The translations under genes and the position numbers were made by a program. 58,377 nucleotides of DNA from Clostridiales bacterium (GTDB lineage: Bacteria > Bacillota > Clostridia > Christensenellales > Pumilibacteraceae), in NCBI GenBank assembly GCA_022508445.1, contig JAFLVG010000012.1, positions 1 to 58,377 on the forward strand, written 5' to 3'. How positions within the stretch are numbered: the stretch's first letter is position 1; every line of letters begins with the position of its first letter. The notes below the pieces were generated by a model. The model was not told the DNA's origin, searched no databases, and saw only the letters and a program-made list of their open reading frames with translations. Of this stretch, positions 49,790 through 57,780 are shown piece after piece.

Positions 49790-50836
49790 TTACTTCTTAA
49801 AATTTCCTCTTAACCTATCGTTAAGCTCGTCAGCCGCGCTGAATCCGAGGTCGTTCAAGCGGTGTGTTCTCGCCGCAGCTTCCAATATGACTGCGAGGTT
49901 TCTGCCCGGTTTGACGGGAATAACGTGCAACGGCTTTTTGACGCCGAGTACGGTGTAGAACTCTTCGGGTGCGCCCAAGCGTTGGTACTGCGCTTTGTCG
50001 TCCCACGCTTCCAGCCGCACCACCATGTCGATAGTTTTGACTAATTGTATTGCGCCCGCGCCGTACATGGCTTTTACGTCTATAATACCTATTCCGCGCA
50101 CTTCCATGAAATAGCGGATCATGTCGGGGCTTGTGCCGTCCAGTCTATCACCTATTCGCGTTATTGTGACGGCGTCGTCCGCAACAAGACGGTGTCCGCG
50201 TTCGATGAGCGACAGCGCGGTTTCGCTCTTGCCTATTCCCGACTCACCTATCACGAGAACGCCCACGCCGTAAAGATCCATCAAAACGCCGTGAATAGTC
50301 TGGGACGGGGCGAGAAGCTGGTTCAAGTACAGCGACAAGCTGTTTACAAACATCGTCGTTCTCTGTTTTGACGTCAGAAGAACGCGGTTAAATTTGCGCA
50401 CGGCCGAAATAAGCTCGTCGCACGGCGGCGTAGTCGATGTTATTATAAGGCACGGTATCGGTTGCTTCATGAGCGTTTCGCACGCCGTTTTTCTCGCGTC
50501 GTGCGTCATCTGCTGCAAGTACGCCATTTCCATTTCGCCCATGACTTGAACGCGCTCCGCCGAGAAATGCTTGTAATAACCTGCAAGCTGTAATCCGGGG
50601 CGGCTTATATTAAACGTGCTGAAATGAATACGCTCGTTATCGCCTCTGTAAACGACTTCGAGGTCCATGCGCTTTGCAAACTCGAATACGTCAACGTCGC
50701 ATTCGTTTTCGTCGATTTCGATATCGCCTTTTGCGGAGTATTGCGGCTCGTGATCGATATTCTTGACTTCTTCCGCATGATCCCGTACTACCGTTTGCTC
50801 GGGCGCTTTTGCGCTTTCAGATTTCTTTTTAGGCAT
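49790..50836 (-). CDS. hprK: HPr kinase/phosphorylase
   Basis: Phosphorylates HPr at the regulatory serine, coupling glycolytic state to carbon catabolite control. The ATG at 50836 has GGAG upstream and gives 348 residues. The catalytic C-domain has H182, Walker A GESGIGKSE (197-205) and the family signature MEVRGIGIIDV near 250. About 45 charged N-terminal residues are extra compared with the usual ~310. Last gene of the dtd-queH-uvrC/HAD-hprK run; starts inside the uvrC/HAD stop region (8-base overlap). Confidence 0.95.
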   Translation of the reverse strand: MPKKKSESAKAPEQTVVRDHAEEVKNIDHEPQYSAKGDIEIDENECDVDVFEFAKRMDLEVVYRGDNERIHFSTFNISRPGLQLAGYYKHFSAERVQVMGEMEMAYLQQMTHDARKTACETLMKQPIPCLIITSTTPPCDELISAVRKFNRVLLTSKQRTTMFVNSLSLYLNQLLAPSQTIHGVLMDLYGVGVLVIGESGIGKSETALSLIERGHRLVADDAVTITRIGDRLDGTSPDMIRYFMEVRGIGIIDVKAMYGAGAIQLVKTIDMVVRLEAWDDKAQYQRLGAPEEFYTVLGVKKPLHVIPVKPGRNLAVILEAAARTHRLNDLGFSAADELNDRLRGNFKK

Positions 50837-53522
50837 GGCTATCTCCTTTACCTTCACCGCCGAAGCAGAATTTTTCTATTGTTTTGGCAACGCCGTCGGC
50901 GTTGTTTGTTTCCGCTACATAGTCGGCAAGCCGCTTTACGGGCTCCTGCGCATTGCCCATTGCAACGCCCAATCCTGCCGCTTTAATCATCGGTATATCG
51001 TTAAAACTGTCGCCGAACGCCATGACCTCGGACATCGGTATGCCGTAATGCTCGGCAACGTACTTTAACGCGCTACCCTTGTCCGCGCCCTCGCTTATAC
51101 ATTCTATCATGGCAGGCTCAAAATCGTTACCGTCTGTTTTGAGCCGAGAAAGAAGCGGCGCGGTCGATTGTATAAACCGCATACTCGGAAACTCCGAAGT
51201 AAGAACCGAGATAGTATTTGCGATATTCTTTTCGTCGAGAAGTAGTATCACCTTTACTATCGGCTCATCCGATTTTCGCACATACTCCGATAAATCGCCC
51301 ACAACGTCGGGCGTGATACCCACCGCAGTCGAATATCTTTCGGTTATATAATTTACGCTCTCTATTTTCATGCCCTGCGCGTCGTAAAGCTGCATGACGG
51401 TACAACGCGGCGCAGCAAATCGCAAAAGATCTATGGCAGTCGATTTTTCGATATAACGCGCATGCTCGATTTCGAGAGTTCCGCTGTCCACAATCATGCA
51501 ACCGAGGTGGCAAACCATTTTTACGGGGTGCGAGTCAAGCCCGAGCGCTGACACGGCGCGCGCAACGCCGCTCGGCGCACGTCCTGTCGCTACGGTGAAT
51601 ATGCCGCCCGCGGCGCGGAATTTTTCGACGGCCGCGCGATTGACTTCCGATACTTGGAGCTCGTCGTTTAGCATCGTTCCGTCAAGATCGACGGCTATCA
51701 GCTTGTACCTGAGTCCGCCCGCATTTACTTCCGACGGGTGGTAATATTCGTAAATATTTTTCGCGGCTTTTTTTGTTATGCCGGCTTTTTCGGCAATCTC
51801 GTCCGCGGAAGCCGCTACAATAGATCTTGTATTGAAAACTTCGAGCACCTTTTTGACTGTCGTAGTCCCCACGCCGTCGATACCTTTAAGCTCGCTCTCA
51901 TATCTTCTCGACCGTAGCGATCTGTGATACAGGACGGCAAACCTGTGCGCCTCGTCGCGCACGCGTTGCAAAAGCCGCAGTGCATAATCGTCGCGTTTAA
52001 GCTTTATCGGAACGGGATTGCCGCGAAGATAAAGCTCCTCGTCGCGCTTTGCAAGTCCTACCATGGAAACCCTTACCCCGACGTCGTCCGCCGCTCGCGC
52101 CGCAAATTCCACTTGCTCCAAGCCGCCGTCGATGACGATGAGATCGGGAAGCTCGTTAAATCCGGCGTCGCCGTTTTTGTAATGAATGAGCCTGCGCGTT
52201 AGCGTTTCGTACATCGAGCGAAAATCATCCGCGCCCTCGACCGTGCGAATGCGGTATCTTCTGTATTGCGCCTTATCGGCCTTGCCGTCTATGAACACAA
52301 CGCCGGACGCGACCTTGTCCTCGCCCGAAATATTGGAAATGTCGTAGCACTCGATGCGCCGCGCACTCGGAAGATCGAAAATGCTTTTGAGCCGCTCGCA
52401 CGCGCCGAGCGTCATATCCTCGTCGCGCTTTACGCGGTCGGCGCTCTTGACGAGAAAGTCCGAGCAGTTGCGCGAAGCTGTGTCGAGCAGTTTTTTGCGC
52501 ATGCCCTTTTGCGGAAATGATATAATCGGGCGCTTTGAAAACACAGACATGAAATACTCGACGAGCGAGCTAACGTCGCGCTCGGCTTGCAGGCATATCT
52601 CGTCGGGCAGTTCGTTGGTCATAGAATAGTACTGCGGCAAGAAAGAGGTCATATCGCCGTCGAACATCTGCGGCTCGTTGATGATGTAATTCTTGACGCC
52701 CATCATTTTTCCGCCGCGAACAATACAAACGCTGACCGCGCCGTAAATGCCGTTGTCGGTGTAATAGAACGCGTCGATATTGACAATATTACCAAGCTCG
52801 CCTACGACCTTGCTCTTCAAGTTTTCGAGTACTCGCAGTTGATTCCTGTACGAAATAGCGCGCTCGAAATTCTCTTTTTCGGCGGCCTCCGTCATCTTTT
52901 GCGTTATAACGCCCGAAATATCGTCACCACCGCCCGAAAGGAAGGACATCGCGCCGTTTATCGCCTTTTGATATTCGGCTTTGTCGCACCTGTCACAGCA
53001 CGGCGCAAGACATAAATCGATGTCGTAATTGAGACAAGGCCGCGTGCGTTTTGCGAGCTTGCCTGAGCATGTGCGCAGACGGTAGACCGACTGCAAAATA
53101 GATATTACGTCGCGCACAGACACGCCGATAAACGGTCCGAAATACCTCGCGCCGTCACGCTTGACTCGCCTCGTCACCTCGATTGTCGGGAACTCCGCAC
53201 GCGTGTCTATTCGAATGTACGGACTGGTTTTATCGTCTTTGAGCAGGATGTTGTAGTGCGGCTTGTACTTCTTGATCAGATTGTTTTCGAGCGCGAGCGC
53301 GTCCTTTTCGGTACGCGTTATTATATAGTCGAAATCGGCGATGTTGTCTACCATCGCTTGGACCTTGACAGGCTTTTCGGTGTTGCGGAAATATTGCCGC
53401 ACCCTGTTTTTGAGTACGACAGCCTTGCCGACGTAAATCACCTGCCCGTTAACGTCGCGCATGATATAAACCCCCGGGGTGTCGGGAAGGTCTTTGAGCT
53501 TTTCGGCTATGTTATCTCTCAT
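50829..53522 (-). CDS. uvrC: UvrC excinuclease subunit fused to a Cof-type HAD hydrolase
   Basis: One uninterrupted 897-codon frame. Residues 1-600 are a full UvrC: GIY-YIG nuclease (PGVYIM...YVGKA, 16-45), UVR motif (about 204-236), RNase H-like C-nuclease (CYDISNISGEDKVASGVVF, DLIVIDGGLEQV) and the tandem helix-hairpin-helix (546-592). From 605 a complete HAD-IIB/Cof phosphatase follows: DLDGT (612-616), ATGRAPSG with T646, K815, and GDSFNDIPM (837-845). UvrC makes both incisions in nucleotide excision repair; Cof proteins dephosphorylate sugar phosphates or similar. The linker is only about 12 residues. Confidence 0.93.
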   Translation of the reverse strand: MRDNIAEKLKDLPDTPGVYIMRDVNGQVIYVGKAVVLKNRVRQYFRNTEKPVKVQAMVDNIADFDYIITRTEKDALALENNLIKKYKPHYNILLKDDKTSPYIRIDTRAEFPTIEVTRRVKRDGARYFGPFIGVSVRDVISILQSVYRLRTCSGKLAKRTRPCLNYDIDLCLAPCCDRCDKAEYQKAINGAMSFLSGGGDDISGVITQKMTEAAEKENFERAISYRNQLRVLENLKSKVVGELGNIVNIDAFYYTDNGIYGAVSVCIVRGGKMMGVKNYIINEPQMFDGDMTSFLPQYYSMTNELPDEICLQAERDVSSLVEYFMSVFSKRPIISFPQKGMRKKLLDTASRNCSDFLVKSADRVKRDEDMTLGACERLKSIFDLPSARRIECYDISNISGEDKVASGVVFIDGKADKAQYRRYRIRTVEGADDFRSMYETLTRRLIHYKNGDAGFNELPDLIVIDGGLEQVEFAARAADDVGVRVSMVGLAKRDEELYLRGNPVPIKLKRDDYALRLLQRVRDEAHRFAVLYHRSLRSRRYESELKGIDGVGTTTVKKVLEVFNTRSIVAASADEIAEKAGITKKAAKNIYEYYHPSEVNAGGLRYKLIAVDLDGTMLNDELQVSEVNRAAVEKFRAAGGIFTVATGRAPSGVARAVSALGLDSHPVKMVCHLGCMIVDSGTLEIEHARYIEKSTAIDLLRFAAPRCTVMQLYDAQGMKIESVNYITERYSTAVGITPDVVGDLSEYVRKSDEPIVKVILLLDEKNIANTISVLTSEFPSMRFIQSTAPLLSRLKTDGNDFEPAMIECISEGADKGSALKYVAEHYGIPMSEVMAFGDSFNDIPMIKAAGLGVAMGNAQEPVKRLADYVAETNNADGVAKTIEKFCFGGEGKGDSHA

Positions 53523-54087
53523 TTACGCTGTCGTCCCCAACGCCGCGCGAATATTCGCATCCGCAGAAATTTTGCCTGTAAATATCGAGCTCTCGGGCGA
53601 GCCTGCACGACAATAGAAATCCGTCGCGCTTTTTGAAATCGCGCGGCAAAAACGGTGCGCCGTCCGTTATTTTCTCTGCGAGCGAAAATATGAGCTTGCT
53701 GTTTTTGTGCGGACTTACCGTGAGCGTCGTCGTGTACGCGTCGAAGCCGTTATCAAGAGCGTAACGCGCCGCCACGCGCAAACGGTCGTCCATGCAAAGC
53801 GAACACCGCACTCCCCCCTCGGGCGCCCCTGCATGCTCCGCCGCATAGGATTTAAAAGCAGAATAATCGTGCGGAAGAGCAATGAGCGGCAGAGCGTAAT
53901 GCTCGGCAACCGAAGTAAGCGCGTCTAACCGCCGCTCGAACTCGCCGTCTATTATGCACGGGTTATAAAAAAACAGCGTGATAATAGCCCCGTCCGAAAG
54001 AAGCGGCTCGATAGCGCCCAAGCTGCACGGTCCACAACAAGCGTGAAGCAAAATATTCTTGCCTTTGATATCGCCCTCGAAAAACAT
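53512..54087 (-). CDS. queH: Epoxyqueuosine reductase QueH
   Basis: Non-orthologous replacement of QueG that reduces epoxyqueuosine to queuosine, the final step. 191 residues with the family cysteine pairs: HACCGPCS (C17, C18, C21), VRCSLCMDDRL, and CGCEYSRG near the C-terminus, plus TTTLTVSPHKNSKLI. These bind a [4Fe-4S] cluster and metal in characterised QueH. One base after dtd; its end overlaps uvrC by 11 bases. Completes the pathway with queA and tgt at 1475-3950. Confidence 0.93.
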   Translation of the reverse strand: MFFEGDIKGKNILLHACCGPCSLGAIEPLLSDGAIITLFFYNPCIIDGEFERRLDALTSVAEHYALPLIALPHDYSAFKSYAAEHAGAPEGGVRCSLCMDDRLRVAARYALDNGFDAYTTTLTVSPHKNSKLIFSLAEKITDGAPFLPRDFKKRDGFLLSCRLARELDIYRQNFCGCEYSRGVGDDSVNER

Positions 54088-54088
54088 G

Positions 54089-54535
54089 TCAATAAATAAT
54101 GGTCACCGGTCCGATATTTGTCTGTTCTATAACCATGTCGGCTCCGAAAATACCGCGAGCGACATTTCCTTCGGTATCGCGCATGCAGTCCTCTACAACG
54201 TCGGCGCAATAATCGAACAGCACACTCGCGGCAAGCGGCGGCCGCATCGCGTTAGTGAAGCTCGGACGGTTGCCGTGCGAAATGTCCGCACACAGCGTGA
54301 AGTTGGAAACGATAAGAATATCGCCTCCGACGTCGCGCACGGAAAGATTCATTTTGCCGGCGTCGTCCGAAAAAATGCGCATATTGGTCAGCTTTTGCGC
54401 AAACGCGACAGCATTGCTCTCGGCGTCCGCCTGCTCTATACCGAGATAAACGACAAGCCCGAAACCGATCGAGCAAACCTCCTCGCCGCCTACGGACAGC
54501 CGCGCATTTTCCACACGTTGAATAACCGCTTTCAT
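54089..54535 (-). CDS. dtd: D-aminoacyl-tRNA deacylase
   Basis: Removes D-amino acids (and glycine) wrongly attached to tRNA. 148 residues: MKAVIQRVENARLSV, the SNFTLCAD active-site loop (family S-Q-F-T-L), GNRPSFTNAMRPPLA, and the cross-subunit Gly-cisPro motif in TNIGPVTI. First gene of the operon. No ribosome site; the ATG sits 6 bases after the -10, so the mRNA is probably leaderless. Confidence 0.95.
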   Translation of the reverse strand: MKAVIQRVENARLSVGGEEVCSIGFGLVVYLGIEQADAESNAVAFAQKLTNMRIFSDDAGKMNLSVRDVGGDILIVSNFTLCADISHGNRPSFTNAMRPPLAASVLFDYCADVVEDCMRDTEGNVARGIFGADMVIEQTNIGPVTIIY

Positions 54536-55874: not shown

Positions 55875-57446
55875 TCACTCAACAAAAGTCACGTTGATAG
55901 TGCCGTTATTCGTACTAACCCTTAATAATTTGCTTCCATCGTTCTTGTTATTCAGATTGCTCGAACCGTTGCCCGTTTTAGACACTATTTTATAGTCGCT
56001 TTTTCTGCCGGCGATAGTGCCCCTTACAGAGCCATTGTGAGTGATGAGCTCAATCTCGTCACCGACAATTTTTCCTACGTTGACCGCGCCGTTACTTGTT
56101 TTGGCATGAATTTTAGTCGCTATGCATTTTTCGAGCCGAACGGCGCCGTTGTTTGTTTCTCCTGTCAGTGAAGCCGCCGCGACATTCTTCATATTGACCG
56201 CGCCGTTATCGGTTTTAGCGCTTATTATTTCTTGAACACTAACGTTTTCCAGCTCTACCGCGCCGTTATCGGTTGATACGGATAAGCTTTGTGCCCGAAA
56301 ATCCTTAACGCGGACAGCGCCGTTATCGATGGACAGCGTAAGTCCGACAAAATCCATACTTTGTATATTTATTTTTCCGTTTGAGAGTTCCACGCCGACA
56401 TCGAAACCAATCTCTTGCGGCAAATAGAGCGTAGCTTTGTAATAATCATTTGAGCCGAATGCAAAGAACACACCGTGTTTCCAAATCAAACCAATATTTC
56501 CAAACCAAGAATTCGATTTAAGTTCTGCTGTTCCGTTTTCATAAGAATAGCTTTTCGGTTCATCTTCGAAATCCCTATATTCAAGCCTTATTGCGCCGTC
56601 GTCCGAATATTTTATGTCTAAATCCATATTGTCGGAAACCAGACTAAAAGCGTCTGTGGGGGTTTCAAGCTCCACAACCCTGACAACCATGTCATCATAA
56701 CCCGCCAGCTTATTCCAGTTAAAGCCTATCGCGCCGAATGCGCATATAAAAACCGCTATACCTACAACAAAACTTACAATAACCGCACCGCAAAATTTTT
56801 TCTTCTTGAATTTCTTTGTCTGCTTTGGCTCTTTACGACACAATCGCCTAACTACATTAGCATAAATTTTGCCGATAACCGGAATAAAGACAAACAACAA
56901 AACGCCAATCGCAATATACGCTATCCCGAAACCGAGCTGTGCAAACGCCGTAGCTGTGTGCTCGCCCAAAATCGCAAATGCCGATATGAAAGAAAAACCG
57001 CCTGAAACGACAATAGAAAACGCCGCAACGGAAATGGAAAACAAAAATATCGCCCCGACAAACGCAACCACAATACAAGCTATCGCAAGAATAATTTTAA
57101 CGACTGCCGAAGAATCACTTTTCTGCGCCGGCGACTGCTCACCTATTTGTTTATCCGCCGATTTTTCTTTGTGCGTTTTCTGCGCATCAAACGACTCGTT
57201 TTCATTAATCGTCATATGGTCGTCGACGGTTTTTGAATAACCGATATCGGATGCTTTCACTTCGCGCATGAAGTTCTGCGCAACAAGTTCAGGTGGCTCT
57301 AAATTATCAATGAACGCTTCTCCTCCGCCATTTTCGAGTCCGTCTTCAATAAGATCCCGATAGTACTCAATAAGCCCTTCCGCCTCTTTGCTGTCCGCAT
57401 CGTTGAGCGCCGCTCTCAACCGAGATAAATATTCAGATTTTAGCAT
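55875..57446 (-). CDS. HAAS (DUF1700) and DUF4097 membrane protein
   Basis: 523 residues. The N-terminal HAAS helices (MLKSEYLSRLRAALN, EYYRDLIEDGLENG) are followed by three or so membrane segments (about 113-190 and 222-245), then a C-terminal DUF4097 right-handed beta-solenoid made of short repeats with recurring DNGAV, TNNGAVR and TNNGTI motifs (about 330-520). Such proteins pair with PadR regulators and are thought to sense the envelope. GGAGGG precedes the ATG, overlapping the PadR gene by 7 bases. Confidence 0.88.
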   Translation of the reverse strand: MLKSEYLSRLRAALNDADSKEAEGLIEYYRDLIEDGLENGGGEAFIDNLEPPELVAQNFMREVKASDIGYSKTVDDHMTINENESFDAQKTHKEKSADKQIGEQSPAQKSDSSAVVKIILAIACIVVAFVGAIFLFSISVAAFSIVVSGGFSFISAFAILGEHTATAFAQLGFGIAYIAIGVLLFVFIPVIGKIYANVVRRLCRKEPKQTKKFKKKKFCGAVIVSFVVGIAVFICAFGAIGFNWNKLAGYDDMVVRVVELETPTDAFSLVSDNMDLDIKYSDDGAIRLEYRDFEDEPKSYSYENGTAELKSNSWFGNIGLIWKHGVFFAFGSNDYYKATLYLPQEIGFDVGVELSNGKINIQSMDFVGLTLSIDNGAVRVKDFRAQSLSVSTDNGAVELENVSVQEIISAKTDNGAVNMKNVAAASLTGETNNGAVRLEKCIATKIHAKTSNGAVNVGKIVGDEIELITHNGSVRGTIAGRKSDYKIVSKTGNGSSNLNNKNDGSKLLRVSTNNGTINVTFVE

Positions 57447-57757
57447 TTTTTACCCTCCCCGTGCACAAAGGCATTGATTCTCTGCATTTCTTTCCACTCC
57501 TCGTCAAACTCTTTAAGGCGTTTCCTACCCTCGGGAGTAATTCGGTAATATCTTCGCAACCGTCCGTTATGCTCGCGCGAATATGTGACAAGCTGCCCAA
57601 GCCCCTCCAATCGTTTGAGTATCGGATACAGCGTTGACTCCGAAACATCAATTATCGTGGAAATTTTGCTGATAAGCTCGTATCCGTACGAATCACCTCT
57701 TACAAGAAGCGCAAGAACGCAAACGTCCAACAATCCTTTTTTCATCTGCGAATCCAT
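57440..57757 (-). CDS. PadR-family transcriptional regulator
   Basis: 105 residues from the ATG at 57757 (AGGAG 8 bases upstream). Winged-helix pattern: KKGLLDVCVLALLVRGDSYGYELISKIS, VSESTLYPILKRLEGLGQLV, RRYYRITPEGRKRLKEF. Usually represses its own operon, here the HAAS/DUF4097 gene directly downstream. Confidence 0.93.
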   Translation of the reverse strand: MDSQMKKGLLDVCVLALLVRGDSYGYELISKISTIIDVSESTLYPILKRLEGLGQLVTYSREHNGRLRRYYRITPEGRKRLKEFDEEWKEMQRINAFVHGEGKKC

Positions 57758-57780
57758 GGCTAACACTCCTATTGCATAAT

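Follow-up and report, generated by a model that had tools for sequence, protein, structure and literature searches.

The window, the whole 58,377-nucleotide stretch analysed here, comes from contig JAFLVG010000012.1 of a Clostridiales bacterium of the Pumilibacteraceae, and it carries a gene in which the excinuclease UvrC is joined to a phosphatase. Positions 50829-53522 of the minus strand form a single ATG open reading frame of 897 codons plus stop, which encodes a complete UvrC (residues 1-595), a linker of 9 residues and a complete Cof-type HAD-IIB phosphatase (605-897). The original prediction, made from these letters alone, had described UvrC fused in frame to a complete Cof-type HAD phosphatase; that description is borne out by the single frame, by full-length Pfam and NCBIfam matches and by the other genomes of the genus. 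The linker it proposed is also present, at 9 residues rather than about 12.

The UvrC part matches the NCBIfam uvrC profile TIGR00194 with 522.6 bits (curated cut-off 285.45) over positions 2-573 of 574, and its Pfam domains (residues 17-592) follow in the expected order of GIY-YIG, UVR, RNase H-like and helix-hairpin-helix (HhH). The HAD part matches the Cof-subfamily profile TIGR00099 with 157 bits (curated cut-off 137) over positions 1-256 of 256, and the full Pfam profile Hydrolase_3 (PF08282) at residues 609-882 with 177.8 bits. The HAD motifs, aligned to 3niw, are D612/D614 (I), T646 (II), K815 (III) and G837-D838 with N841-D842 (IV), where the numbering of the motifs and the naming of the IIB-type cap follow the usual convention. 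We take the GIY-YIG domain to make the 3' incision and the C-terminal RNase H-like domain the 5' incision, with Y19, Y30, R40, E79, N91 and D394, D465, H526 as the presumed nuclease catalytic residues; the last three align to identical residues of 2nrt. An alternative genetic code masking a stop was considered and rejected, given that the frame is open under table 11 and no such code is needed.

Table 1. Features of the fused gene and its neighbours, in window coordinates
Feature	Position	Strand	Residues, source or remark
hprK (HPr kinase/phosphorylase), next gene	49790..50857	-	first ATG at 50836, 8 nt overlap with end of fused frame
uvrC::HAD fused frame	50829..53522	-	897 aa; open reading frame list, Pfam, NCBIfam
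Cof-type HAD-IIB part	50832..51710	-	residues 605-897; PF08282, TIGR00099
Inter-domain linker	51711..51737	-	residues 596-604; between His595 (end of HhH part) and Arg605 (HAD start)
Helix-hairpin-helix domain (HHH_5)	51747..51896	-	residues 543-592; PF14520
C-terminal RNase H-like endonuclease domain (UvrC_RNaseH_dom)	51933..52382	-	residues 381-530; PF08459
UvrC RNase H-like middle domain (UvrC_RNaseH)	52452..52781	-	residues 248-357; PF22920
UVR (UvrB-binding) motif	52821..52904	-	residues 207-234; PF02151
GIY-YIG nuclease domain	53250..53474	-	residues 17-91; PF01541
queH, preceding gene	53512..54087	-	11 nt overlap with uvrC start
dtd (D-Tyr-tRNA deacylase), before queH	54089..54535	-	

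The gene lies in a tight minus-strand row, dtd-queH-uvrC::HAD-hprK, and is overlapped at both ends (Table 1); hprK, which the original prediction had placed beside it, is indeed the next gene. The same genome encodes uvrB (C42:84202-86124) and uvrA (C42:86223-88955), and PF08282 has one other near-full-length match and three short ones elsewhere in it. Elsewhere on the minus strand, window 55875-57766 carries a PadR-family regulator and then a HAAS/DUF4097 protein.

Fixation and selection in the genus

All 20 genomes examined from the genus (uncultured Clostridia) carry the fused frame, as 18 complete copies and two partial ones (L024, L025) that have lost the 5' end at a contig edge and still span the junction. 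Stops flagged within the match in G019, G002 and G017 lie, in frame coordinates, at the C-terminal end of the HAD part and not at the junction. All eight UvrC catalytic residues named above are invariant in the 18 complete copies, as are D612/D614, T646, K815, G837, D838, N841 and D842 of the HAD part. Linker length is 8-10 residues across the 20 loci, and the linker sequence varies while the frame is kept. Eight of the genus records are metagenome assemblies, which could raise the suspicion of an assembly, binning or frameshift artefact. That explanation is rejected as almost certainly wrong, given that the frame is fused in all 20 genomes, that several record series are represented among the eight, and that linkers differing by one or two residues nevertheless stay in frame. 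Judged from these sequences, the gene fusion is real, fixed and stable in the genus. One record with the window-genus fusion, JAMPDA010000010.1 (L103), is titled Roseburia sp., and its title looks wrong.

For pairs with a synonymous rate (dS) below 1.5, the median ratio of nonsynonymous to synonymous rates (dN/dS) is 0.087 for UvrC (135 of 153 pairs) and 0.171 for HAD (36 of 153 pairs). The median ratio of the corresponding proportions (pN/pS) over all pairs is 0.173 and 0.476, so that the HAD is clearly the looser half. Its cap is the most variable part, with a mean identity of 38% between genus members and a highest pair dN/dS of 0.776; the HAD core parts average 62% and 69%. Both halves are evidently under purifying selection with no sign of decay in either, which agrees with the earlier statement that both keep their catalytic residues and neither is decaying. 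Faster evolution of the HAD after fusion is not claimed, since unfused genera give similar UvrC/HAD mean identities: 0.777/0.518 in g8 (12 loci), 0.836/0.637 in g18 (6) and 0.820/0.611 in g2 (2), next to 0.850/0.551 in the fused genus (18 loci). In the HAD tree a long stem branch (1.01) leads to the fused HADs, and stems of other groups reach 0.88-0.91.

Separate pairs in relatives and a second fusion

Outside the genus, 48 of 54 genomes of the family were sampled (G021, G032, G056, G063, G067 and G070 were left out). At 36 of the 48 loci the HAD has a frame of its own, downstream of uvrC and in the same orientation, 12 have no HAD within 1.5 kb of uvrC (one of these, L188, ends at a contig edge), and none is fused. 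Comparison with relatives, as proposed by the original prediction, therefore gives separate adjacent genes outside the genus and none inside it. Such separate genes, which the original prediction had named as grounds for refutation, do not refute the fusion, because all 20 genomes inside the genus have it; instead, they show how it formed. Among 35 loci of the order, which were partly picked for a visible nearby HAD and do not give a rate, 26 have a separate HAD, nine have none and none is fused. Eighty loci from named records comprise eight fused (window genus), 15 separate and 57 without a HAD found. The neighbour order is often uvrC-HAD-hprK.

A sample of the phylum was taken as every second row, 4 to 82, of a score-ordered listing, that is, 40 of 132 matching genomes from the higher-scoring part. 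In 16 of the 40, as a raw count, a Cof-type HAD in the same orientation starts no more than 1 kb downstream of uvrC; one of the rest has hprK but no HAD and 23 have neither.

Ten of the 20 fused HADs were included in the HAD tree, rooted at its midpoint, where they form one clade (100/100). This clade is nested in a group (support 88/92) that also takes in 35 of the 36 separate HADs of the family, the paralogue of the window genome and two HADs from another family. Most simply, the members of an old neighbour pair fused a single time, at the root of the genus. The ancestor of the genus would have lost the uvrC stop, such that uvrC and the adjacent Cof-type HAD gene, often followed by hprK, became joined in frame.

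Searches for fusions covered 396 genomes of the order, 196 of the class, 139 of the phylum (132 with a match) and 101 of family f11 (87 with a match). Among the matches listed, the window genus and genus g114 (family f11, another family of the order) are the sole sources of full-length matches free of stops, although a very divergent fusion could escape. Such a match, in a genome of another family (G355), was among those listed in the order-wide profile search. Long open frames in G080, G078, G116, G147, G766, G826, G810, G734 and G311 were resolved by a hidden Markov model scan into separate uvrC and HAD frames. The large UvrC frame of G667 (L211) is not a HAD fusion; its N-terminal part looks Maf-like by eye. 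This Maf-like sequence, upstream of uvrC and in frame with it, falls out of its own frame towards its end, which is probably a frameshift and not a fusion. Elsewhere, three Cof-type HAD frames lie in tandem downstream of uvrC at L038 (G024). UvrC frames matched in two or three pieces at L056 (G050), L045 (G035), L053 (G044), L054 (G047), L081 (G113) and L039 (G025) reach 849 codons and may hold insertions inside UvrC.

Twelve of the 13 g114 genomes match, six with a fused frame (L190-L195) and six split (L196-L201) by a short overlap or gap between uvrC and HAD; G440 gave no match. Fused and split HADs interleave in the HAD tree, so either fusion or fission took place more than once in g114 or the tree is not resolved there. 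The nuclease residues are conserved in all six fused proteins, as are the residues corresponding to D612, D614, T646, K815, D838 and D842, with DIDDT as motif I and Leu at the position of Asn841 in the window. Their linkers measure 6-8 residues, and median dN/dS is 0.122 for UvrC (7 of 15 pairs) and 0.134 for HAD (9 of 15 pairs). The g114 fusion evidently arose independently of that in the window genus. The two share the same parts, in the same order, on a short linker; they differ in origin, in the mixed state of g114, and in the junction start codon with a Shine-Dalgarno (SD)-like site that all six fused g114 loci carry.

Expression across the junction

A sigma-70-like site precedes the separate HAD start at 8 of 36 family loci and 13 of 26 order loci (1.26 and 2.21 expected from mononucleotide shuffles), counts that are not independent because related loci share ancestry. 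At 14 of these 21 sites a distance of 6 or 7 nt separates the end of the -10 hexamer from the start codon downstream, as in a leaderless message, which suggests leaderless HAD messages in uncultured Clostridia (L027, L028, L029, L031, L044, L055, L056, L074, L080, L180, L182, L183, L184 and L185). The other 41 of 62 separate HADs have no promoter-like site, and none was found before the HAD at the 20 loci of the window genus or at the 12 of g114, fused and split.

The fused frame might be a mere genetic convenience, in which translation starting within the gene supplies most of the HAD and the full-length chain is a by-product. Such a start is suggested in g114, where an in-frame TTG or GTG with an SD-like stretch stands at, or three codons before, the old HAD start in 6 of 6 fused loci. 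By comparison, of the 942 in-frame start codons that occur within the uvrC parts of the 26 fused genes, 130 have an SD-like match. The six loci are related, however, and so are not six independent cases. In the window genus 7 of 20 loci combine a start codon at the junction with at least 4 nt of SD-like match, but in three of the 20, the window species included, the junction lacks a start codon altogether, and where the HAD once began ten loci have Met and the rest Leu or Arg. The window genome has no in-frame ATG, GTG or TTG from 18 codons before to 3 after the HAD start. An internal start as the main source of the phosphatase is thus quite improbable for the fusion as a whole, although L190-L195 could each yield a nested second product from the in-frame start at the old HAD position.

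Given that their junction start codons differ, the two fusions seem to differ as well: the window species appears to have given up separate synthesis of the HAD, and g114 may make both forms. The main effect of the fusion would then be on expression, in that the window species no longer makes the phosphatase apart from UvrC.

Function and comparison with known systems

An AlphaFold model of the protein, built on an alignment of 63 sequences (9 fused rows, 40 UvrC-only and 14 HAD-only), has a mean predicted local distance difference test score (pLDDT) of 89.3 and a predicted template modelling score (pTM) of 0.52, with pLDDT below 50 at residues 597-602. As modelled, it consists of two well-folded units and a disordered linker, in no settled orientation. 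With Foldseek, the UvrC part matches UvrC structures, and the HAD part matches 4dwo and YidA 1rkq (TMt 0.89) and PfHAD1 with mannose-6-phosphate (TMt 0.85) over about 280 columns; sequence searches agree for both parts. The HAD is nearest in sequence and fold to stand-alone HAD-IIB (sugar-phosphate) phosphatases. A HAD sugar phosphatase of Bacillus subtilis has been studied (PMC3207120), and tying a phosphatase to UvrC expression could be one way to control such an enzyme.

With good confidence, though short of certainty, the locus can be read as a true, fixed fusion in which two enzymes that each work independently are tethered and co-expressed. The 897-residue product would hold two separately folded and separately catalytic parts on a short flexible linker. 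The UvrC part would act with UvrA and UvrB in nucleotide excision repair and make both incisions, and the C-terminal HAD would hydrolyse a phosphorylated small metabolite, probably a sugar phosphate. Sequence comparison itself shows the fused frame and its conservation, the intact catalytic residues, the purifying selection, the descent from a neighbour pair and the second fusion, whereas the class of substrate, the independence of the two parts, co-expression as the outcome and a single origin within the genus are inferences.

The HAD might instead work with excision repair by dephosphorylating a repair-linked small molecule, either a damaged nucleotide or a sugar phosphate derived from damage, such that the fusion co-locates two steps or fixes their ratio. 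The adjacency of uvrC and HAD is widespread (16 of 40 in the phylum sample, 36 of 48 in the family) and has been fused at least twice, a pattern often read as a functional link, and linkers are short and near-constant in the 20 window-genus and six g114 loci. Yet in sequence and fold the HAD comes closest to HAD-IIB phosphatases of sugar phosphates, its cap varies more than any other part, which is odd for one fixed repair substrate, 12 of the 48 family loci lack a HAD beside uvrC, and separate HADs often have their own promoter-like site. A repair role is consequently unlikely. It is doubtful, too, that the Cof-type HAD beside uvrC is an unrecognised excision-repair partner across the phylum, clearing a damage-derived phosphorylated metabolite and keeping repair and clean-up in fixed proportion. 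The original prediction had offered both processing of a repair product and coupled expression; the second is the better supported, and the first is without direct support, the nearest relatives being stand-alone HAD-IIB enzymes.

Some observations weigh against two independent, co-expressed enzymes. Repeated fusion and the wide uvrC-HAD neighbourhood could reflect shared function instead; the Met at the old HAD start (10 of 20) and the SD-like junction starts (7 of 20) may give a separate product at those loci; and the model alignment is mostly unpaired between the halves, so that an interface could be missed.

The fusion gives a widespread repair nuclease a conserved bifunctional form, whose separate, overlapping and fused stages can all still be seen in living relatives, and it draws attention to a wide and unexplained link between uvrC and a Cof-type phosphatase. 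It is also a warning for annotation, since the protein is a complete UvrC as well as a complete phosphatase, and a name taken from either half conceals the other. In the open-access PMC literature, none of the matches listed was a paper on a fusion of UvrC with a HAD. In short, this is a new domain architecture of two known families.

Compared with the known UvrC excinuclease (TIGR00194; 1yd6, 2nrt, 3c65, 8b0q), the protein has the same domains, order, checked catalytic residues and profile length, but does not stop where the profile does, at the HhH domain, and continues into a HAD phosphatase of some 290 residues. Its HAD part shares length, the four motifs and the fold (TMt 0.83-0.89) with Cof-type HAD-IIB enzymes (TIGR00099; YidA 1rkq, Bacteroides 3niw/4dwo, PfHAD1 4zev), but solved HAD-IIB proteins are chains of about 260-300 residues, whereas this one is the C-terminal part of a UvrC. 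A 2006 survey of GIY-YIG architectures reports GIY-YIG nucleases fused to other enzymes, namely a Cho-like domain with a DnaQ-type exonuclease in Mycobacterium and GIY-YIG with endonuclease III (PMC1564403); the word phosphatase has no occurrence in the survey's main text. In those cases, as here, a GIY-YIG repair nuclease is joined to a second enzyme, but the partners in those cases act on DNA, whereas the window protein keeps a whole UvrC and its partner is a phosphatase of the small-molecule type.

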